From the NCBI GenBank assembly GCA_030602715.1, contig JAUVZD010000008.1, forward strand, positions 72,897-136,896: a DNA stretch of 64,000 nt, in the 5' to 3' direction. Below, piece by piece: positions 1 through 9,863 of the stretch. The notes under the pieces were generated by a model that was not told the DNA's origin, did no database searches, and worked only from the letters and a program-made list of their open reading frames with translations. A program made the position numbers and the translations under genes. The DNA is from Candidatus Coatesiibacteriota bacterium (GTDB lineage Bacteria > RBG-13-66-14 > B26-G2 > JAUVZD01). Positions within the stretch are counted from its first letter, which is position 1, and every line of letters begins with the position of its first letter.

Positions 1-278
1 AGTAACAGACTCAGGATTACCCTCCTCGCATTGAGGACTTTCTCGGAGTCTGTAATTATCTTCATACCCTCCTGGCAAACGGTATTGCACGATGTTACCA
101 GCTCTTTGCCCCAATCTCGTTCTATCTCCACCTGGCATATACGACAAGCTGCGTAAGGTTCCATAATGGGGGTGTAGCATAGAGTGGGAATCTCTATTCC
201 AGCGCTTTCCGCTGCTTTATAGATGGTAGTTCCCTCTTCAACCTCAACGGTTTTTCCGTTTATCTCTAAACTTACCAT
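1..278 (-). CDS. NuoG/HndD-like protein with N-terminal [2Fe-2S] ferredoxin domain (partial)
   Basis: Reading leftward from ATG at 276-278, this gene encodes a protein starting MVSLEINGKTVEVEEG and runs off the window edge after about 92 residues. The visible part is the plant-type [2Fe-2S] ferredoxin domain found at the N-terminus of NuoG, HndD/HydA [FeFe] hydrogenases and formate dehydrogenase alpha subunits: a Cys-x10-Cys-x2-Cys motif (LCYTP...AACRIC) followed by two further Cys (SCNTVCQEGM). AAGGAG lies 7 bases before the chosen ATG; an in-frame ATG at 306-308 extends the protein by ten residues and also has a weak ribosome site. It is the last visible gene of the hdr/nuo operon, about 30 bases after nuoF. 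Whether the missing part is a hydrogenase, a NuoG or a short adaptor cannot be seen. Confidence 0.8.
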   Translation of the reverse strand, partial: MVSLEINGKTVEVEEGTTIYKAAESAGIEIPTLCYTPIMEPYAACRICQVEIERDWGKELVTSCNTVCQEGMKIITDSEKVLNARRVILSLL

Positions 279-311
279 CGATATCTCCTTTTGAACCTTT
301 TTACTCATCAG

Positions 312-3300
312 CTATTCCTCTCGCAAATCACACCTGAGGCACCGCTCACTTTCTCTCAGGGCGTCTTCATCAGAGTATCCGAGTTCAACCATATTGAAAT
401 TCATAACTCTCTCTTTGACATCTGCGAGTGGCATTTCCGGGCGACCTGTTTCTGCTAACATCTCCAATTCCTCATCAGAAAGTTCAAGCATTGGAAGTTT
501 TATACCAGGTTCGGTAATGTGATGTTCCCTTATGACTTTTTCACCTTTCAGGAATTTGTCTATCATTTGTGCAGCAATTTTTCCTAAAGCCAGAGAGTCA
601 GAAACGGTGGAAGTTCCCGATACAGCATCTCCGCAGGCAAACACTCCATTCTTACCGGTATAGAGTGTTTCATTATCCACCTTAATCGTTCCATCATCGT
701 TGAGTTCTATCCCGCTGACGCCGTTGAGAAAACTTGCATTAGGCACTTGCTTTATTGCCGGGAATAGACATTCTGCTTTGATAACCAACTCTGAACCTTC
801 AACAGGCACGACTTCACGATATCCTGTCTCAGTAAGCTCTCCAAGTTCCATACGAATACATTCAAGACCAACCATATTTCCATCTTCAACAATAATCCTC
901 TTCGGTCTCGTCAGAAATTCTATATTTATGCCTTCATCAATTCCTGCTTGAACCTCCCCTTGAAATGCCTCCATTTCTTCTCTGATATTCTCAAAGACAA
1001 TGGATACATTTGACCCTAACCTTCGTGCGGTTCTGGCAACATCTATTGATGCATTTCCACCACCGACCACAACAACTTCTTTGGGTAGTGAAGGTTTCTC
1101 GCCTTTGTTAATCGCCCATAAAAATTCTATCGGGTTTCGGACCCCTTGGGCGTCCTCTCCAGGGATGCCTAAAGGAACATTTTTTTCTGCGCCGACTGAG
1201 ATGAGTATTGCCTTGAAGCCTTTATCAAAGAGTTCCTCAAATTTTACATCATCCCCTATACGAGTGTTAATCTGTATTTCAACACCACCACTTTTTATAG
1301 CGTCAATTTCCATCTCCAATATACTCTTGTTGAGGCGGAAACTGGGAATCGCCGATGCAGGCATTCCACCTGGCTTTGAATCTGCTTCAAATACTGTAAC
1401 TGGATGTCCCATCTTAACCAATTCATGTGCTGCACCCAATCCAGCAGGTCCGGCACCTATAACCGCGACTTTTGGTCCTGCTAATTTGGTCTTTTCAACT
1501 TTTGGTTTACGGCCCTTGGTCATCAGTTTATCGCCGATATACCTTTTGAGTGCCTTAATTGCAAGTTTATTTCCTCCCATATCACCTGCACGACATAGGT
1601 CTTCACAAGCGTGATGGCACACATAACCGCAGGTTACAGCGAATGGATTTCCGTCATAGATGGTGTCAAAAGCCTTCTCATATTCTCTTCTGGCGAGGTA
1701 TCCGAAAAAATCTGGTATGTTTGTCTGAACAGGACAGTTGTATTTACAAGGTGTGAATATGATTTTTGAACAGACCATAGAAGGGCAGTTCTTTCTTAGA
1801 ATATGTTCCTCATATTCATTCCGGAAGTATTTTAATGTTGTCAGTATCGGATTAGGTGCAGTTTGACCAAGACCGCATAATGCAGTCTCCTTAATCACAT
1901 TGCCGAGTGTCTCAAGTTCTTCAACATCGCTTAATTTCCCCTCTCCCCTGGTAATCCGCTCTAAGATGTCATGCATCTTTGGTACGCCCTCTCTGCAGGG
2001 GGTGCATTTCCCACAGGATTCGTTCTTGGTAAAATTGAGGAAGAATTTTGCCAGATCTACCATACATGTTTCTTCGTCTGCTACGACCAATCCGCCGGAG
2101 CCCATCATTGAGCCTGCTTCTGTTAATCTCTCGTAATCAACTGGCATATCCAACATTGAACCCGGAATACAGCCACCTGAAGGGCCACCAGTCTGGACTG
2201 CTTTGAAATCTTTTCCTTCAGCTATACCACCGCCGATGCTAAATATTAGGTCCTTTAAGGCGATTCCCATGGGGACTTCTACAAGTCCAGAATTTCTAAT
2301 CTTTCCTGTGAGAGCAAAGACCATTGTTCCTTTGCTTTTTTCTGTTCCGATGTTTGAAAACCACTTTGCACCCCGTGCTATTATCGGAGGGACACTAGCC
2401 CAAGATTTGACATTATTGACGACGGTTGGCTTACCATAGATTCCGCTCTCGGTTGGGAATGGGGGACGGGGTCTGGGCTCCGTTAATCTACCTTCTATTG
2501 CCGCAATGAGAGCGGTTTCCTCACCGCAGACAAATGCTCCAGGCTCTCTGGCAATCCTCAGATCAAAGGAAAAATCTGTTCCAAGTATGTTTTCACCGAG
2601 GAATCCGTATTCTTTTGCCTTTTCAATTGCCTTTTTTAGTGTGTCAATCGCAAGGTAGTAATCTACACCGATATAAATGAAGCCTTTTGATGCCCCGATT
2701 GCGTGTGCTCCGATAATCATCCCCTCTATAACGCTATGCGGGTCACTTTCAAGAACTCTTCTGTCCATGTATGCGCCTGGGTCACCTTCATGAGCATTAC
2801 ATACTATATATTTGGGTTCGCCTTTTGCGGCTCTACAGAACTTCCACTTAAGCCCGGTGGGGAAACCTCCTCCTCCACGACCTCTGAGACCTGAGTTCTG
2901 AACTTCCTTAATAACATCTTCAGGTTTCATCTCTTTGAGGCTTTTGATAAGTGAGGAGTATCCTCCACGAGCGATATATTCGTTAATATTTTCAGGGTCT
3001 ATGTGACCGGTATTTCTTAAAATTATCTTTAACTGTTTTTTAAAGAAAGGAATCTCGTGGCATTGGAGGAACTCCTGGTATTCATCTGGGATCCCATTTT
3101 TTGAATATTTATGTTCAGTTTCAAGTATGAGAATATCTTCACGATCGGTGCGGCACAGCACCCACTCGGGAATTATCTCTCCGTTTTGGGCTGACTTTAA
3201 TAGTTTATTAACTTTATCCTCCATGATTGAGTGATATGTTATCCTGGGAAGTCCAGGGAAGATTACATCTACAATCGGCTCAACCTGACAATAACCAATA

Positions 3301-3494
3301 CAGCCTGTTTTTGTGATGTGGAGGTCAATATTGGAATCTTTAACCTTCTCCATTAGTTTGTCATACACATCAAGAGCACCTGCCGCACGACCACAAGTTG
3401 CCATACCCACCATTATCTTGGTCTTTGCAGGATAGAGAGATTTAGTGCCCTCTTTTTTTAGGCTCTTTAAATCTTTGATTTCATGCACCTTCAT
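312..3494 (-). CDS. NuoF-like NADH-binding flavoprotein fused to a GltD/NfnB-like oxidoreductase
   Basis: The 1060-residue protein joins two electron-transfer modules. Residues about 20-115 are the thioredoxin-like 2Fe-2S domain seen in HydB/HndC (ATCGRAAGA, TGCIGYCQVEP). Residues about 170-580 are the NuoF FMN/NADH unit (GRGGGGFPTGLKWKF, EGDPGAYMDRR, GEETALIAAIEGR), ending with the [4Fe-4S] site SCGKCTPCREG. The tandem ferredoxin domain usual in HydB is replaced from about residue 590 by a GltD-type module: a Cys-rich segment (CPVQTNIPDF, CGYVCHHACEDLC), an FAD site (VIGAGPAGLGAAHEL) and an NAD(P) site (VVVVGGGNASIDVA). It probably oxidises or reduces NAD(P)H inside the complex encoded by the operon. 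The gene starts two bases after nuoE stops. The fusion is intact, with no frameshift. Function is inferred from domains. Confidence 0.9.
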   Translation of the reverse strand: MKVHEIKDLKSLKKEGTKSLYPAKTKIMVGMATCGRAAGALDVYDKLMEKVKDSNIDLHITKTGCIGYCQVEPIVDVIFPGLPRITYHSIMEDKVNKLLKSAQNGEIIPEWVLCRTDREDILILETEHKYSKNGIPDEYQEFLQCHEIPFFKKQLKIILRNTGHIDPENINEYIARGGYSSLIKSLKEMKPEDVIKEVQNSGLRGRGGGGFPTGLKWKFCRAAKGEPKYIVCNAHEGDPGAYMDRRVLESDPHSVIEGMIIGAHAIGASKGFIYIGVDYYLAIDTLKKAIEKAKEYGFLGENILGTDFSFDLRIAREPGAFVCGEETALIAAIEGRLTEPRPRPPFPTESGIYGKPTVVNNVKSWASVPPIIARGAKWFSNIGTEKSKGTMVFALTGKIRNSGLVEVPMGIALKDLIFSIGGGIAEGKDFKAVQTGGPSGGCIPGSMLDMPVDYERLTEAGSMMGSGGLVVADEETCMVDLAKFFLNFTKNESCGKCTPCREGVPKMHDILERITRGEGKLSDVEELETLGNVIKETALCGLGQTAPNPILTTLKYFRNEYEEHILRKNCPSMVCSKIIFTPCKYNCPVQTNIPDFFGYLARREYEKAFDTIYDGNPFAVTCGYVCHHACEDLCRAGDMGGNKLAIKALKRYIGDKLMTKGRKPKVEKTKLAGPKVAVIGAGPAGLGAAHELVKMGHPVTVFEADSKPGGMPASAIPSFRLNKSILEMEIDAIKSGGVEIQINTRIGDDVKFEELFDKGFKAILISVGAEKNVPLGIPGEDAQGVRNPIEFLWAINKGEKPSLPKEVVVVGGGNASIDVARTARRLGSNVSIVFENIREEMEAFQGEVQAGIDEGINIEFLTRPKRIIVEDGNMVGLECIRMELGELTETGYREVVPVEGSELVIKAECLFPAIKQVPNASFLNGVSGIELNDDGTIKVDNETLYTGKNGVFACGDAVSGTSTVSDSLALGKIAAQMIDKFLKGEKVIREHHITEPGIKLPMLELSDEELEMLAETGRPEMPLADVKERVMNFNMVELGYSDEDALRESERCLRCDLREE

Positions 3495-3495
3495 C

Positions 3496-3954
3496 TCAGT
3501 CCCCCTTATATCTATACTTTCTTAGAAGGGCGGGCACTTTGTTTGAAAGCATTCTTGAAAATATCTTTTCATCTATTTTTACGGTAGGAGGAAGGCTACA
3601 ATACCCAAAGCAACTTACATCCTGAAGGGTAAACTGCATGTCCTCTGTTGTCTCTCCGGATTTTACACCCAATTCCTGTTCAAACCTTCTCAAAATCCGT
3701 ATCCCACCCCTCACATGGCATGCTGTTCCTGAACATACTTGGACTATATGTTTCCCTCGTGGTGTAAGGGAGAAAAACCCGAAGAAAGAGGCAAGACTGA
3801 ATATCTTACTCAGTGGAACATCTAACTTCTTAGAAAGCCTAAGTAATTCATCTTTTGGCAGGTAATTGTGCTCCTCTTGAATATCCTGGAGGACCTCAAT
3901 TAAAGCCTCTCTCTCCTCAACTTCAATCGTTACATTTCCATCTCCGCTAGACAT
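3496..3954 (-). CDS. NuoE-like [2Fe-2S] thioredoxin-fold subunit
   Basis: The 152-residue protein is a NuoE/HndA-type subunit of NADH dehydrogenases and electron-bifurcating hydrogenases. It has an N-terminal helical part (EVLQDIQEEHNYLPKDEL, then LSKIFSLASFFGFF) and a C-terminal thioredoxin-like domain carrying the four cluster ligands as Cys-x4-Cys (CSGTAC) and Cys-x3-Cys (CFGYC). The length is normal for the family. Its start codon lies directly after the stop of the upstream short hdrA, and nuoF follows after one base, so the three are almost certainly translated together. In known complexes NuoE sits next to the FMN of NuoF and passes single electrons. Its substrate here is set by its partners. 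Confidence 0.92.
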   Translation of the reverse strand: MSSGDGNVTIEVEEREALIEVLQDIQEEHNYLPKDELLRLSKKLDVPLSKIFSLASFFGFFSLTPRGKHIVQVCSGTACHVRGGIRILRRFEQELGVKSGETTEDMQFTLQDVSCFGYCSLPPTVKIDEKIFSRMLSNKVPALLRKYRYKGD

Positions 3955-4839
3955 CTAACTCACCTTGCTTTCGGTAAGTGGTTCGGCTTCACCAATGCCA
4001 GATTTAACCACTTTTTTGCCCACCTTTATTACCTTCTTTGATGGAACGGTGTAAGAAGGACATACCTCCCAGCATGTTCCACAAGAGGTGCACTTTTCCA
4101 GGTCAACATATCTTGCTTTCTTACGGACCTTAACTGAGAAATTGCCAATGTATCCAGATACATCCTCAACTTCACTGTGAGACAGTATCTCAATATTGGG
4201 GTGTATTCCTACATCTACCATCTTTGGAGTTAGAATACAGGCAGCGCAATCAAGGGTGGGGAAAGTCTTATCAAAATATCCCATGTGTCCACCTATAGTT
4301 GGCTCCCTTTCAACCAGGAAGACCTTTCTTCCACCATTGGCAATGTCCAGTGCCGCTTGTATTCCAGCAACCCCACCACCCACCACCAGTGCTGAGGGGG
4401 TAATATCAACCGTTCGGGTTTCAAGTGCCTCCAAAAGGGTTGCCCTTCTAACCGCAGCCGATACCAGTGCCTTAGCCTTCTCAGTCGCCTTTTTCTTGTC
4501 CTCGGTAACCCATGATACATGTTCTCTGATGTTTGCCATTGAGAAGTAATACTGGTTCAATCCCTCGTCACGGCAAACCCTCCTGAATGTGTGCTCGTGC
4601 ATCCTGGGAGAGCACGATGCGACCACAACACGATTTAAGCCTAAGTTTCTAATATCTTCCTTGATTAGGTTCTGACCGGGGTCAGAACACATAAACCTAA
4701 AATCTCGAGAAATGACAACATTCGGGAGCCGACCTGCAAAATCTGAAACATCAGCAGTGTCTACAACTCCCTCAATGTTGCTCCCGCAATGGCAGATATA
4801 AACCCCGACCTTTACTTTCTCTTTTTCTTCCTCTGCCAT
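3955..4839 (-). CDS. Short HdrA-like protein (N-terminal half only)
   Basis: This 294-residue protein matches only the first part of HdrA, the FAD-containing subunit of heterodisulfide reductase. It contains the CHCGSNI segment near residue 16, an FAD-binding motif (ALVVGGGVAGIQAALDIA), the HdrA signature LDCAACILTPKMVDV, and a single [4Fe-4S] motif CTSCGTCWEVCP near residue 250. It then ends in a Lys/Val-rich tail. The C-terminal half of HdrA, with the second FAD lobe and two ferredoxin clusters, is absent. The N-terminal 260 residues are closely similar to those of the neighbouring large HdrA fusion, so it is a tandem paralogue. Its reading frame is clean and it abuts nuoE, which argues for a real subunit, possibly an electron relay or a structural partner, rather than a decayed copy. 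Confidence 0.85.
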   Translation of the reverse strand: MAEEEKEKVKVGVYICHCGSNIEGVVDTADVSDFAGRLPNVVISRDFRFMCSDPGQNLIKEDIRNLGLNRVVVASCSPRMHEHTFRRVCRDEGLNQYYFSMANIREHVSWVTEDKKKATEKAKALVSAAVRRATLLEALETRTVDITPSALVVGGGVAGIQAALDIANGGRKVFLVEREPTIGGHMGYFDKTFPTLDCAACILTPKMVDVGIHPNIEILSHSEVEDVSGYIGNFSVKVRKKARYVDLEKCTSCGTCWEVCPSYTVPSKKVIKVGKKVVKSGIGEAEPLTESKVS

Positions 4840-4876
4840 ATCACCTCTCCTTTGGGTGATAGAAAGTCCTAAAGCC

Positions 4877-7800
4877 TCACTTTATGGATAGTTCTTCTAC
4901 CGCCAATCCTTCAATCTCTGCGAGAATCTGCTCATCCGTAAAGTGTTTCCCTATAATAGCGCTACTTGGACAGGCAGCAACACAGGTTCCACAACCCTTG
5001 CACAGGGCTTCGTTCACCACAGAAGCACCCTTCTCCTCATCAAAAGTAATTGCAGTGTATGGGCATAAGTCATTACAAATCTTGCATCCTGAGCAGAGCT
5101 CTTCCATCGTCTCTGCGGTTGCGGATTCAATCTCAACCTTCCCTGTGACCATCAAGTCTAGGGCTGCTGCTCCTGCACTTGCTCCCTGGTCAACCGAGTA
5201 TGGAATATCCTTGGGTCCAACAGCACACCCGGCGATGAAGATGCCGGCGGAGGCTGTCTCAGTGGGGTCAAGTTTAACGTGTTTTTCTAAGAAGAACCCG
5301 TCCTCAGTGCACCCAAGCCCGAACATCGCTGAGACCTCTTTTGAATCGGCACTGGGTTCAACTGCCGGGCAAAGGATTACCAGGTCAACAGGAACTCTCC
5401 TGATCTCACCGGCGAGCGTATCCTCACACCTTACGATTAACTTACCCTCCTCACCCGGGAACATGGCAAAATCAGTTATCTCCGCAGCCTTTCCACGAAT
5501 GAATCTCACTTCCTCTGATAAGAGCCTTCTGTAGAATTGCTCATAGCCTTTTCCATAACACCTCATATCAATATACATCTGATAGACCTCTGCTCGCTTC
5601 TCGGTTCTTTCTCTGATGAGGTGGGAGAATTTGAGGGCATACATACAGCATACGGCTGAACAATACTCGTGATAATCTTCATCCCTTGAACCAATACAAT
5701 GAAGTATGGCAACTGACTCTGGCTCTACTCCTTTTGATGTCAGCATCTTACCTTCAGAAAACCCAGTGGCGTTGACCATCCTCTCAAATTCCAGAGAGGT
5801 TATAACATCAGGATATTTTCCGTATCCGTATCTGGTCATAGGAGTCGGGTCAAAGAGTTGATAACCTGTTGCCACAACTATCGTTCCGACATTTAACTCC
5901 ACTATCTCATCTTTAGCGTCGTGAAAAATGGACTTAGGTTCGCATACAGTCTCACATTGGCGACACTCAACACAAACACCGCAGTGCAGACATCTCTCTG
6001 CTTCTCTCTGTGCATCTTCCTCAGAAAATCCGAGCATGACCTCTTCAAAGTTGGTCTTTCTTGTATCCGGGCTCAACTCAGACGTAACAGTTCTGTGTTT
6101 CCAAGGCTCGTCAGGATACTCCTCTCTCCAATCAATCTCCTCCTCCAACTTCTCCTCATGCTCAATTTTCTCTTCTAGTAGATCAGTAAAACGCTCGCCC
6201 TCAAAATATCTTATGATACTTTTTGCCGACTTTTTACCATCTGCAACTGCCTCTAAGACGGTAGCCGGTCCATACACCATGTCTCCACCCCCGAACACAC
6301 CCTTTACATTGGTGGCTTTCGTCTCATGGTTAACGGTTAAGGTGCCCCAATCGGTGAAGTTTAACCTTAAACCATCTTCGTTGAAGGTAAGGTCTGGTTT
6401 TTGACCTATTGCGAGTATGACCCTATCGCATTCAATTACATGCTCTGACCCGTCAACTGGAACTGGTCGTGGTCTGCCGGATGAGTCAACTTCGCCCAAC
6501 TCCATATTCTGACACTTAAGACCGGTAAGTTTACCCTTGCTATCAGTTTCAAAGCCTACGGGTGATTTGAGGAAGGTGAATTTGACCCCCTCAGCTTCCG
6601 CTTCTTTTATTTCATCCGGGTCAGCAGGCATCTGTTCTTCAGTTCTACGATAGACTACCTCTACCGATGAGGCGCCTGAACGGAGTGCCACCCTGGCTGC
6701 ATCCATTGCGGTATTGCCACCACCAATTACTTTTACCTTACCTGAGATGTCAACCTCACCACCAAGGTTGATATCTCTCAATATGTCAACGCCCTGATAT
6801 ACGGCAGCAACATCTGTATAGTCAAGCCCGCCGGAGGTTCCAACATGTGCACCTGTTGCGATGAAGATTGCATCGTATTCTTTTTTCAATTTCTTTAAGG
6901 TGATATCCTTTCCTACTGTGGTTGATGTCTTGATTGCCACGCCCATCTTCTTAATGTAGTCTATCTCACGGTCCAATATCTCGTCTGGAAGCCTATATCT
7001 TGGGATGCCGACGCGCATCATGCCACCGGCGGTGGGGAGCGATTCGTAGATGACGGATTTATATCCCTGTAGGGCTAGGTCATGTGCACAGGAGAGACCT
7101 GCTGGGCCACTTCCTATGATGGCAACCTTTTTACTCTTCTTCTCCTCAATTTCTGGTGGCTCCAAATGCTCATTGTGCTCATAAGCCCAGTCGTAGATAA
7201 ACCTCTTGAGGTGTCTGATGGAGATGGGTTGGTCAAGTTCTCCCCTTCTACAGTTGGCTTCACAGGGGTGATAGCAAACCCTTCCGCAAATTGCCGGAAG
7301 GGGGTTTACCCTGCGGATTAATCTCATTGCTTCTGCATATTTCCCCTTGGTTACCAGGGCAACATAACCTGCTGCGTCCTGGTCAATGAGACATGCAACT
7401 TTACACGGGGATATTTCCTTCTTATCTATTACAAATTTGTTCGGGACGGCTTGTGGAAACATTCGGTAAATTGCTTTTCTTTTAGCGTGTCCTAGTTCAA
7501 ACTCGTCAGAAACCTCAATGGGACAGACCTCTGTGCAGTCATTACAGGCGGTACAGGTTTCAAGGTCAACATAACGTGCCTTTTTGCGAACTTTTACTGT
7601 GAAGTTACCGACGAAACCTGATACATCCTCAACTTCGCTGTAGGAGAGAATCTCTATATTAGGATTACTTGCCACATCAACCATTTTAGGGGTGAGAATA
7701 CAGGCGGCGCAGTCAAGTGTTGGAAAAGTCTTATCCAGATATGCCATATGACCGCCGATTGAAGGTTGCTTTTCAACGAGATAAACCTTTATGTCACCAG

Positions 7801-8299
7801 CAGCCATTTTGAGGGCTGCTGAAATCCCTGCGATTCCACCGCCTACCACCAACACTGCTGGCTCAATATCAACTTCTCTTGTAGGAAGTGGTTCAAGTAG
7901 TGATGCCCTTCTTATCGCAGCGGATACTAAGGCCTTGGACTTCTCTGTGGCTTCTTTCGGGTCGGTAGTGACCCAGGAAACTTGTTCGCGGATATTTGCC
8001 ATGGTAAAGAGATACTGGTTTAACCCAGCCTCTCTACAAGCCCTACGAAATGTAGGTTCGTGCATTCTTGGGGAGCAAGAAGCGACGACCACTCTATTCA
8101 GGTTGTGTTCCTTAATATCTTCCTTGATGATATTCTGCCCCTCATCGGAGCACATGAACTTGAAGTCTCTGGAAACTACGACGTTGTCTAATCTGCCAGC
8201 AAACTCGGTAACTTCTTTGGTGTTTACAATTCCCTCAATGTTGCTTCCGCAATGGCATATATAGACGCCAACTCTCGCTTCAGAACCGTTTCCGTTCAT
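4877..8299 (-). CDS. HdrA with an inserted GltD/NfnB-like NAD(P)H oxidoreductase module
   Basis: This 1140-residue protein is an HdrA into which a GltD-type module has been placed. Residues 1 to about 290 are the HdrA N-terminal half: CHCGSNI, VLVVGGGIAGISAAL, LDCAACILTPKMVDV, CTACNDCTEVCP and the HdrA segment KRKAIYRMFPQAVPNKFVID. Residues about 295-780 are a glutamate-synthase-small-subunit or NfnB-like unit (ICGRVCYHPCEANC, AIIGSGPAGLSCAHDLA, VIGGGNTAMDAAR). HdrA then resumes (CGVCVECRQCETVC, HCIGSRDEDYHEYCSAVC) and ends with two [4Fe-4S] motifs, CSGCKICNDLCP and CKGCGTCVAACP. Large HdrA-plus-NAD(P)H-oxidoreductase proteins (HdrL) are known from sulfate reducers, and this resembles them. 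It probably bifurcates electrons at the HdrA flavin, taking them from NAD(P)H, and passes them to HdrBC encoded just upstream. Confidence 0.9.
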   Translation of the reverse strand: MNGNGSEARVGVYICHCGSNIEGIVNTKEVTEFAGRLDNVVVSRDFKFMCSDEGQNIIKEDIKEHNLNRVVVASCSPRMHEPTFRRACREAGLNQYLFTMANIREQVSWVTTDPKEATEKSKALVSAAIRRASLLEPLPTREVDIEPAVLVVGGGIAGISAALKMAAGDIKVYLVEKQPSIGGHMAYLDKTFPTLDCAACILTPKMVDVASNPNIEILSYSEVEDVSGFVGNFTVKVRKKARYVDLETCTACNDCTEVCPIEVSDEFELGHAKRKAIYRMFPQAVPNKFVIDKKEISPCKVACLIDQDAAGYVALVTKGKYAEAMRLIRRVNPLPAICGRVCYHPCEANCRRGELDQPISIRHLKRFIYDWAYEHNEHLEPPEIEEKKSKKVAIIGSGPAGLSCAHDLALQGYKSVIYESLPTAGGMMRVGIPRYRLPDEILDREIDYIKKMGVAIKTSTTVGKDITLKKLKKEYDAIFIATGAHVGTSGGLDYTDVAAVYQGVDILRDINLGGEVDISGKVKVIGGGNTAMDAARVALRSGASSVEVVYRRTEEQMPADPDEIKEAEAEGVKFTFLKSPVGFETDSKGKLTGLKCQNMELGEVDSSGRPRPVPVDGSEHVIECDRVILAIGQKPDLTFNEDGLRLNFTDWGTLTVNHETKATNVKGVFGGGDMVYGPATVLEAVADGKKSAKSIIRYFEGERFTDLLEEKIEHEEKLEEEIDWREEYPDEPWKHRTVTSELSPDTRKTNFEEVMLGFSEEDAQREAERCLHCGVCVECRQCETVCEPKSIFHDAKDEIVELNVGTIVVATGYQLFDPTPMTRYGYGKYPDVITSLEFERMVNATGFSEGKMLTSKGVEPESVAILHCIGSRDEDYHEYCSAVCCMYALKFSHLIRERTEKRAEVYQMYIDMRCYGKGYEQFYRRLLSEEVRFIRGKAAEITDFAMFPGEEGKLIVRCEDTLAGEIRRVPVDLVILCPAVEPSADSKEVSAMFGLGCTEDGFFLEKHVKLDPTETASAGIFIAGCAVGPKDIPYSVDQGASAGAAALDLMVTGKVEIESATAETMEELCSGCKICNDLCPYTAITFDEEKGASVVNEALCKGCGTCVAACPSSAIIGKHFTDEQILAEIEGLAVEELSIK

Positions 8300-8312
8300 T
8301 CAGAACTCTCCT

Positions 8313-9179
8313 TTACACAAATGACGACAATTGCTTTTCAGGACTGACGATAAGGCTATTCATAGCCATATCCTTCTCACTCCTTCCAAAAGCAAACCCC
8401 ATCAGTTGTGGGAAAAACAATATCGGTATGTTAAAGTCAGCGTCATACCTCTTGTTTATCTGTGCCTGATAGGCTTCCAAATTGATGTGGCACATTGGAC
8501 AGGGAGTTATGATGATATCTGTCTCTTCACGTTGAGCGGCGAGCAGTATGTTCTTGCTCATTCTCAATGCCTGTTCTCTTACGGAACCTGCAATGCTACC
8601 ACCGCAACACCTGTCCTTCATGGGGAAATATACGGAGGTTGCTCCCAGGGCTACTACGATGTCGTCAAGAGTGTGTGGGTCCTCAACGGAGTCAAATCCA
8701 CCCTCTGGTCTGATGGTCTGGCAGCCATAATAAGAGGCAACTTTGAGACCACCTAAATCCCTCTTTAAATTTGCCCTGACGGTATCCAATCCAACATCGT
8801 TGACTACCACATCCAGAAGGTGCCTTACCTTAATTGTCCCATTATACTCCAACCCTGCCACTGTAAGTGCTTTGGTTACTAAATCCTTTACCTCAGCATG
8901 TTCCTCCATATAAATATTGGTCTTGTTTAGGCCAAGATAGCAGGCGCTACAGGGTGCAATTATATCCCATCCTTTCTTCTCTGCTAAGGCGAGATTTCTT
9001 GCGGATAGGACAAAAGACCTCCCTTGTGAGACTGACATATAGGCTGTTGCACCACAACAGTTCCAATCCTCTAGCTCCTCCAGATCAATGTCAAGTAAAG
9101 GAGCAATTGCCCGAGTTGAAAGATCGTAGGGAAAGGAAGTCGCTTCAAGAGAACACCCGGGATAATATGTATATTTCAT
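8313..9179 (-). CDS. hdrB: HdrB-like subunit (two CCG domains)
   Basis: The 288-residue protein has the two cysteine-rich CCG domains of heterodisulfide reductase subunit B: a first set with YYPGCSLEA, DWNCCGATAY and CSACYLGL, and a second with YYGCQTIRP, DRCCGGSIAG and CPMCHINL. In methanogen HdrB these cysteines bind two non-cubane [4Fe-4S] clusters that reduce the disulfide. All the expected cysteines can be seen, so a catalytic site is likely. The natural substrate in a bacterium is unknown and may be a different disulfide or a thiol carrier. Its ATG overlaps the stop of hdrC by one base (TAATG), and the HdrA fusion follows after 13 bases. Related CCG proteins occur in succinate and lactate oxidoreductases, but the HdrC partner supports this call. 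Confidence 0.92.
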   Translation of the reverse strand: MKYTYYPGCSLEATSFPYDLSTRAIAPLLDIDLEELEDWNCCGATAYMSVSQGRSFVLSARNLALAEKKGWDIIAPCSACYLGLNKTNIYMEEHAEVKDLVTKALTVAGLEYNGTIKVRHLLDVVVNDVGLDTVRANLKRDLGGLKVASYYGCQTIRPEGGFDSVEDPHTLDDIVVALGATSVYFPMKDRCCGGSIAGSVREQALRMSKNILLAAQREETDIIITPCPMCHINLEAYQAQINKRYDADFNIPILFFPQLMGFAFGRSEKDMAMNSLIVSPEKQLSSFV

Positions 9180-9775
9180 TACACAACACCTCCTAATACC
9201 TCATGCTCCTCACAGACATCAAGCATCTTCTGTAATTCTTTCAAGTCCTTGATCTTCTTGCCTCCGAGTGGCAGTCTCCCCTTGAAGAATAGTTTTATTC
9301 CTATGGGTGCCTGCTTGAATATCTCCAGAGGAGCGGCGGTGAGGCTGAACCTGGTCATCAATTCAATCTCGTGATTTCTCCCTTTCTTTCTTACGATATC
9401 AAAGAAGATGGGGGACATCTTATAAAGCCTTGCCTGGGGAGCCTTCAAGTCAGTCTCGTTCCATGCAATCCTTTTCAATGCATAAAAGACATCCGTTATC
9501 TTGATGTTTTGAGGGCATCTGACCTGACACATATAGCAAGAACAACAATATAAGATTGCCTCGCTCTCAAGAACTTCCTTCCTCATACCAGCCCGCACCA
9601 TTGCAAATACCTGTCTTGGAGAGTAGTCCATCAAGTAGGCAGTGGGGCAAGAACCGGAGCAGGTCCCACACTGGATACACTTTTTTATCTGTTCTCCCCC
9701 TGGAATAGAATATACCTCATCAATGAAGTCTCTCGCCAATGTATATTCTAACCGTATCTCTTTTTCTTCCTCCAT
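9179..9775 (-). CDS. hdrC: HdrC-like iron-sulfur subunit
   Basis: The 198-residue protein is the ferredoxin-like subunit that pairs with HdrB. It carries two [4Fe-4S] motifs, CIQCGTCSGSCP near residue 36 and CCSCYMCQVRCP near residue 80, in a mainly helical protein of typical HdrC length. It should carry electrons from HdrA to HdrB in the cytoplasm. I chose the ATG at 9773-9775 because AAGGTG lies 6 bases before it; a GTG at 9784 would start inside that ribosome site. It is the first gene of the leftward operon, with about 450 bases of untranslated sequence before it if the nearest good promoter is used. Confidence 0.9.
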   Translation of the reverse strand: MEEEKEIRLEYTLARDFIDEVYSIPGGEQIKKCIQCGTCSGSCPTAYLMDYSPRQVFAMVRAGMRKEVLESEAILYCCSCYMCQVRCPQNIKITDVFYALKRIAWNETDLKAPQARLYKMSPIFFDIVRKKGRNHEIELMTRFSLTAAPLEIFKQAPIGIKLFFKGRLPLGGKKIKDLKELQKMLDVCEEHEVLGGVV

Positions 9776-9863
9776 AATTGGCACCTTCTGTGAAATTTCA
9801 GGAATCTTGAAAAGGGAATACTAACCCCAAAATTTTGATGCAGAATGTAAAATACTCCACAAT

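Follow-up and report, generated by a model that had tools for sequence, protein, structure and literature searches.

A Coatesiibacteriota operon proposed to encode a [NiFe]-hydrogenase/heterodisulfide-reductase complex with a NuoEFG module spliced into HdrA

What kind of enzyme is encoded by an operon in which the genes of a complete heterodisulfide reductase, HdrABC, are interleaved with nuoE, nuoF and nuoG? The question is raised by the left end of a 64,000-nucleotide stretch of DNA from a Candidatus Coatesiibacteriota bacterium (GCA_030602715.1, contig JAUVZD010000008.1, positions 72,897 to 136,896), hereafter the window, which forms the end of a 136,896-base contig in a genome of 2.31 Mb with a completeness score of 100%. 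A description of this stretch made without database searches, here called the sequence-only reading, had placed seven leftward genes of an Hdr-Nuo-GltD operon there. The six complete genes and the beginning of the seventh are indeed there, all with open reading frames and almost touching, and profile scores far above chance agree with the assignments, so that a composite Hdr and NuoEFG unit with GltD modules is borne out at the gene level. As an interpretation that we regard as an even call, the locus would encode a single soluble [NiFe]-hydrogenase/heterodisulfide-reductase/NuoEFG complex, in which a NuoEFG module of the Bfu (HydABC) type has been spliced into HdrA.

The divided HdrA and the extent of the operon

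The features on which the argument relies all lie on the minus strand and are listed in window coordinates; negative positions lie to the left of the window, and G and L numbers are genome and locus labels, G000 being the window's own genome.

9179..9784, minus: hdrC, 201 residues, two 4Fe-4S motifs (CxxCxxCxxxC twice); TIGR03290, 86 bits
8313..9179, minus: hdrB, 288 residues; PF02754 in two stretches; TIGR03288, 205 bits; CCG at residues 41 and 191
4877..8299, minus: hdrA1 with GltD insert, 1140 residues; aligns to 5ODC HdrA on either side of the insert
5981..7411, minus: GltD module of HdrA1, residues 297-773; PRK12771, 561 bits
6623..6652, minus: NADPH motif of HdrA1-GltD, YRRTEEQMPA, intact (alignment with StnC/NfnL)
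3955..4839, minus: N-terminal half of hdrA2, 294 residues; aligns to 5ODC HdrA 2-269
3496..3954, minus: nuoE, 152 residues, 2Fe-2S; PF01257, 144 bits
312..3494, minus: nuoF with C-terminal GltD, 1060 residues; best solved relatives Nfn-Bfu, NiFe-HydB and StnB
1770..1811, minus: Bfu B2-cluster ligands His564, Cys570 and Cys575 of NuoF (alignment with A. mobile HydB H525, C531, C536)
966..995, minus: NADPH motif of NuoF-GltD, FENIREEMEA, degenerate (alignment of GltD modules)
1..308, minus: start of the nuoG/hdrA2(C) fusion, 594 residues in total, running to position -1476 (L002 14421-16205)

The fourth gene had been taken for a second truncated HdrA. It is present but not merely truncated: it encodes the N-terminal half of a split protein, HdrA2, ending shortly past the first cluster motif of the inserted ferredoxin domain, and the C-terminal half is found in the nuoG gene. 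The NuoG/HndD-like assignment of that seventh gene held for the N-terminal part of its product (a 2Fe-2S and two 4Fe-4S motifs, residues 1 to about 235), which is fused to the C-terminal half of HdrA, aligning with residues 243-649 of 5ODC HdrA. Together the halves make up a complete HdrA with the full set of domains and ligands, in which the cluster cysteines and the FAD motif are retained; the N-terminal half is 73% and the C-terminal half 69% identical to HdrA1. The chain break separates the two cluster motifs of the inserted ferredoxin domain and coincides with the position of the GltD insert in HdrA1. Because the last cluster motif of NuoG in gene 7 (CITCGACFSVCPTG) aligns with the first inserted-ferredoxin motif of HdrA, and HdrA sequence continues thereafter, NuoG and HdrA appear to have one ferredoxin domain in common. 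A one-chain HdrA(N)-NuoG-HdrA(C) protein of a Chloroflexi relative (L079/L138) carries the NuoG-type domain at the same point of HdrA.

Recurrence of the gene order in related genomes had been named beforehand as a check on the grouping of these genes. The order hdrC>hdrB>hdrA(N)>nuoE>nuoF>nuoG/hdrA(C), with the NuoG/HdrA(C) fusion, was found in 29 loci from three phyla, representing 27 genomes besides that of the window, wherever the sequence stretch read was long enough, and mvhD-mvhG-mvhA usually come next. Within the phylum of the window (14 genomes) it is seen in G002-G006, G008 and G011, and as far as the contig end in G010. Among sampled genomes, 21 of 396 from the phylum to which Aminicenantes belong encode a full-length NuoG/HdrA(C) protein, as does 1 of 400 from that of the Chloroflexi genome G014. 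The hdr and nuo genes are thus not casual neighbours. This recurrence also bears on two other explanations. An assembly artefact might be suspected, since many of the genomes used for comparison look like fragmented assemblies of metagenomes. It is refuted by 27 other genomes in which the split, the fusion and the gene order are identical and nuoE and nuoF lie intact between the halves, and its probability is vanishingly small. It is very improbable, too, that the two parts of HdrA2 have decayed or serve structure alone, with NuoG and HdrA(C) forming a scaffold that has no bifurcating FAD: a chain break within a flavin domain is unusual, and the GltD module of the window NuoF has lost its nucleotide motif, yet all cluster cysteines and the FAD motif of the split HdrA are retained across the 29 loci of three phyla.

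The sequence-only reading had left it open whether the last gene encodes a hydrogenase, a formate dehydrogenase or NuoG. Leftwards of the window it proved to be NuoG fused to half an HdrA, with hydrogenase genes next: four further leftward genes encode MvhD, MvhG, MvhA and a hydrogenase maturation protease. The full order is hdrC-hdrB-hdrA(GltD)-hdrA(N)-nuoE-nuoF(GltD)-nuoG/hdrA(C)-mvhD-mvhG-mvhA-protease. The gaps within the window are -1 (hdrC-hdrB), 13 (hdrB-hdrA), 37 (hdrA-hdrA(N)), 0 (hdrA(N)-nuoE), 1 (nuoE-nuoF) and 3 bases (nuoF-nuoG); spacing among the first ten genes ranges from -38 to +37 bases, and the protease gene follows 118 bases further on. Owing to this close spacing, the 11 genes look like a probable single operon of 14.8 kb. 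A DUF6249 gene lies about 690 bases upstream and two tRNA genes lie downstream, and promoter and terminator scans upstream of hdrC gave only background-level signals.

Other joins between Hdr and Nuo were observed (L083 17076-19297; L098 675-3941; L112 10404-13661; L140 7773-11060), namely a WOR-3 HdrA piece fused to NuoE before nuoF, and NuoG-HdrA(C)-HdrA(N)-HdrA(C) chains of about 1,090 residues in three genomes.

Nucleotide sites and the hydrogenase

The two-part nature of HdrA1 is supported by scores far above chance for both an HdrA profile, the model named HdrA2 (826 bits), and the GltD-type model PRK12771 (561 bits). Its HdrA domains are complete, comprising the N-domain, the Cys197 equivalent, the FAD domain and the inserted and C-terminal ferredoxin domains, and the GltD module sits between the two cluster motifs of the inserted one. 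In an AlphaFold2 model (mean predicted local distance difference test score, pLDDT, 78; predicted template-modelling score, pTM, 0.52), 616 residues matched 5ODC HdrA (Z 38.2, root-mean-square deviation 4.8), and residues 294-784 matched Nfn-ABC and StnC (Z 48.1 and 46.7, root-mean-square deviation 2.0-2.1); at the level of this model, the domain identities are firm.

NuoF matches the NuoF model at 487 bits and PRK12771 at 439 bits. It retains the FMN domain and the unusual B2-cluster ligands of the Bfu family, C477, H564, C570 and C575, the first of which lies upstream of the other three and corresponds in the alignment to C438 of A. mobile HydB. The C-terminal ferredoxin domain (B3, B4), which is the putative ferredoxin site in Bfu and Stn enzymes (PMC9304861, PMC10482914), is absent from the window NuoF and GltD stands in its place, the first cysteine of GltD following only 8 residues past the last B2 ligand. 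As operons of the same type in relatives (L111, L187-L189, L191, L192, L194) keep the ferredoxin domain there, it and GltD are alternatives at one place.

Both GltD modules have a lysine at the position of StnC K170, where NfnL, the large subunit of the bifurcating transhydrogenase NfnAB, has instead its glutamate ligand of the proximal cluster. Since the lysine is found in both, as in StnC (PMC10482914), their FADs probably transfer electrons rather than bifurcate. HdrA1-GltD has the NADPH motif YRR unaltered, but the GltD of the window NuoF has FEN in its place. In NuoF-GltD the motif is intact in nine operons that lack HdrA-GltD and altered in three that have it (the window, G008 and G011), a pattern amounting to about two independent events because G008 and G011 are closely related. 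The alteration of the NuoF-GltD motif only where HdrA-GltD is also present suggests that each complex has a single NADPH port. Of the three flavin units for which NAD(P) binding had been proposed, two, NuoF-FMN and HdrA-GltD, keep their motifs and are the confidently predicted NAD(P) sites; the third, NuoF-GltD, is the one whose motif has changed. A second nuoE-nuoF(GltD)-short nuoG set, without Hdr genes, is present in the same genome (L106 5769-12161, G000:C5); YRR is kept in its GltD, and next to the set lie apparent genes for a glutamate synthase FMN-domain protein and a glutamate dehydrogenase.

The hydrogenase of the operon is a group 3c [NiFe] enzyme, mvhA matching the VhuA model at 423 bits, and MvhA has its four nickel-ligand cysteines, C61, C64, C455 and C458 (RxCGxC, DPCxxC). 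A search of the genome with this MvhA detected no other [NiFe] large subunit, and no [FeFe] hydrogenase was found in the genome either. With this the sole hydrogenase of either kind found, the genome's H2 turnover probably depends on the complex, and since the hydrogenase belongs to the operon, H2 is likely its donor or product. For the Hdr complex of Moorella, methylenetetrahydrofolate reductase (MTHFR) is reportedly the acceptor module; a corresponding MetFV link is without support here, as MTHFR (PF02219) was not detected in the genome. An acetyl-CoA-synthase-like gene (PF03598; L193 12040-14139, G000:C4) is found in this genome only among the 14 of the phylum, with no obvious Wood-Ljungdahl neighbours.

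In relatives of this operon, the second cysteine codon of the N-terminal nickel-ligand motif of the hydrogenase large subunit (Cys64 in the window species) is exactly where an in-frame TGA stands, RICGV[TGA]P. This was observed at L100, L102, L103, L111 and L145 of the same phylum, L149 of a Chloroflexi relative, and L183 and L188 of the Aminicenantes phylum. Its occurrence in six distinct sequence contexts from three phyla, together with tRNA-Sec scores above the cut-off in most genomes of the window's phylum, suggests selenocysteine at this position. Known NiFeSe enzymes carry selenocysteine in the C-terminal motif, and the N-terminal position is unusual. An in-frame TGA is also present in mvhD of several relatives (L046, L048, L100, L102, L103, L111, L145, L167), in G[TGA]HPGDCHY (Cys66 in the window species), and probably encodes selenocysteine as well; a selenocysteine-containing MvhD has been reported from Desulfobacterium autotrophicum (PMC2702500).

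Origin of the operon

Two loci of the Aminicenantes phylum in which the gap was read have six genes between hdrA(N) and nuoE, some of which, by reading, resemble DRTGG, ATPase and PHP genes. Such genes accompany HydABC operons, and their likeness to these companions suggests that a complete Bfu-type operon was once inserted within hdrA.

The window operon itself looks like a merger of two kinds. A member of the same taxonomic order, G001, has hdrC-hdrB-hdrA(GltD)-mvhD-mvhG-mvhA and no nuo genes, with 64-75% identity in the HdrA1 halves and the Mvh proteins, and the window NuoF, and more weakly NuoG, group with the split-operon type; it is from these two likenesses that the merger is proposed. 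The split HdrA halves of the window group with the resident HdrA1 (support for the C-half, 100/97). Monophyly of the C-halves of all split HdrAs is rejected (p 2e-6), so that one splitting event with straightforward inheritance would need gene conversion in addition; recent conversion between the two HdrAs was dismissed on a third-position identity of about 30-60% throughout. Either an older conversion or the splitting of HdrA a second time would account for the grouping.

The same evidence bears on whether the operon encodes two enzymes, HdrCB-HdrA1(GltD)-MvhDGA and NuoEF-NuoG/split-HdrA2, that have one transcript and regulation alone in common. The nuo-free operon of G001 and the merged appearance of the window operon speak for this arrangement, but the two HdrAs of the operon have only a single hdrCB and a single mvhDGA between them, and most relatives have, beside hdrCB and mvhDGA, no HdrA in the operon other than the split one, which must therefore serve both there. 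Two separate enzymes are for these reasons distinctly unlikely, and the Hdr and Nuo parts very probably assemble in one complex. For the proposed complex speak the complementary halves of HdrA2, the common ferredoxin domain, the one-chain Chloroflexi version, the conserved order, the GltD insert at the matching point of HdrA1, the retained B2 ligands, the lack of any other hydrogenase found in the genome and the Bam-Bfu precedent described below.

Known relatives and proposed electron flow

The operon resembles HdrABC-MvhAGD of hydrogenotrophic methanogens, which passes electrons from H2 to a disulfide and a low-potential acceptor (PDB 5ODC), in that HdrA, B, C and MvhA, G, D are all encoded together with cluster ligands present, including both intact CCG motifs for the non-cubane clusters of HdrB. 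It differs in its two HdrAs, neither of them uninterrupted (the inserted ferredoxin domain carries GltD in HdrA1, and is split and joined to NuoG in HdrA2), in the addition of NuoEF and in a putative bacterial acceptor. With the Bfu family (HydABC, NiFe-HydABCSL; PMC9304861) it has in common a 2Fe-2S NuoE, a NuoF that keeps the FMN domain and B2 ligands, and a NuoG homologue, whereas here GltD replaces the NuoF ferredoxin domain (not in all relatives) and NuoG ends in half an HdrA, not in a catalytic domain. NiFe-HydABCSL of Acetomicrobium mobile (PMC8880783, PDB 7T2R) likewise joins a Bfu core to a [NiFe] hydrogenase, but it has no Hdr part and its hydrogenase feeds HydA directly. Stn/Nfn-Bfu transhydrogenases (PMC10482914; PDB 8OH5, 9BOV, 9N5U) bring together NuoE, NuoF, NuoG and GltD and match the lysine at the K170 position; here, in contrast, GltD is carried by NuoF and HdrA, not NuoG, and Hdr and hydrogenase are added.

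GltD/NfnB-type modules within HdrA are found in HdrL of D. autotrophicum (PMC2702500), Moorella HdrA (PMC9430772) and ANME-1 HdrA9-11 (PMC9012536), the last with the module interrupting the inserted ferredoxin domain as in HdrA1, but no NuoEFG splice has been reported there, and the window has a second, split HdrA. HdrA-type and BfuABC-type modules also occur together in the class II benzoyl-CoA reductase complex Bam-Bfu, which joins them in one purified complex (PMC9304861) and is the best precedent for serial coupling; it has tungsten catalytic subunits and no [NiFe] hydrogenase, and its modules are described as separate subunits, whereas no tungstopterin BamBC subunits are found among the 11 operon genes. 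Thus HdrA-GltD fusions, proposals of heterodimeric HdrA, Stn and Bfu enzymes and Bam complexes have all been published; no description of a split HdrA with a ferredoxin domain in common with NuoG, in union with HdrBC and MvhAGD, was found in the open-access papers searched.

By analogy with HdrABC-MvhAGD, electrons from H2 would travel by way of MvhAG and MvhD to the FADs of the HdrA subunits, where bifurcation would take place, the high-potential branch leading through HdrC/HdrB to a disulfide-like acceptor. Because both HdrAs carry an extra module at the low-potential exit, the low-potential branch, which normally ends in free ferredoxin, would lead to NADH by way of NuoG-NuoF in HdrA2 and to NADPH by way of GltD in HdrA1. 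Our confidence in this routing, from H2 to HdrB and NAD(P), is evenly divided, and the complex would probably be reversible. More tentatively, the HdrA FAD and the FMN/Fe-S core of Bfu might be wired in series through the common ferredoxin domain, so that low-potential electrons from H2 pass directly towards NAD+ and NADP+, not as free ferredoxin, with the reduction of a disulfide-like acceptor of the bacterium as the driving force.

Several points weigh against the proposal. It is built from genes, and the extra modules could as well be electron entry points; to our knowledge, the low-potential exit is established only for methanogen HdrA. No acceptor gene linked to the operon was found on either side of it, and with none among the operon genes or their neighbours HdrB is left without a candidate acceptor. 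The relative placement of the HdrA1 domains is weak in the AlphaFold2 model (pTM 0.52), from which no cluster distances are derivable. It is also conceivable, albeit unlikely, that the same complex runs in reverse, with NADH, NADPH and perhaps ferredoxin or a dithiol supplying electrons by way of NuoF and GltD, and with these electrons being confurcated through HdrA to MvhA, where H2 is released. Such a direction would suit the sole hydrogenase found in the genome, enzymes of this type are generally reversible, and dye-linked oxidation of NADH is reported for the GltD-bearing HdrA of Moorella (PMC9430772). The sequence itself does not dictate a direction, however, and HdrBC with both non-cubane motifs points to a participating disulfide-like couple.

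Electron-bifurcating enzymes fall into four recognised families, of which Hdr and the Bfu type (NuoEFG/HydABC) are two. In this operon, which is conserved across three phyla of poorly studied anaerobes, they appear to share one polypeptide at the place where HdrA normally passes low-potential electrons to ferredoxin. If the proposed wiring is true, one machine would couple H2, NADH, NADPH and a disulfide-like acceptor, and the versions that occur in nature, whether split, fused or continuous, would allow a direct test of the low-potential route of HdrA.

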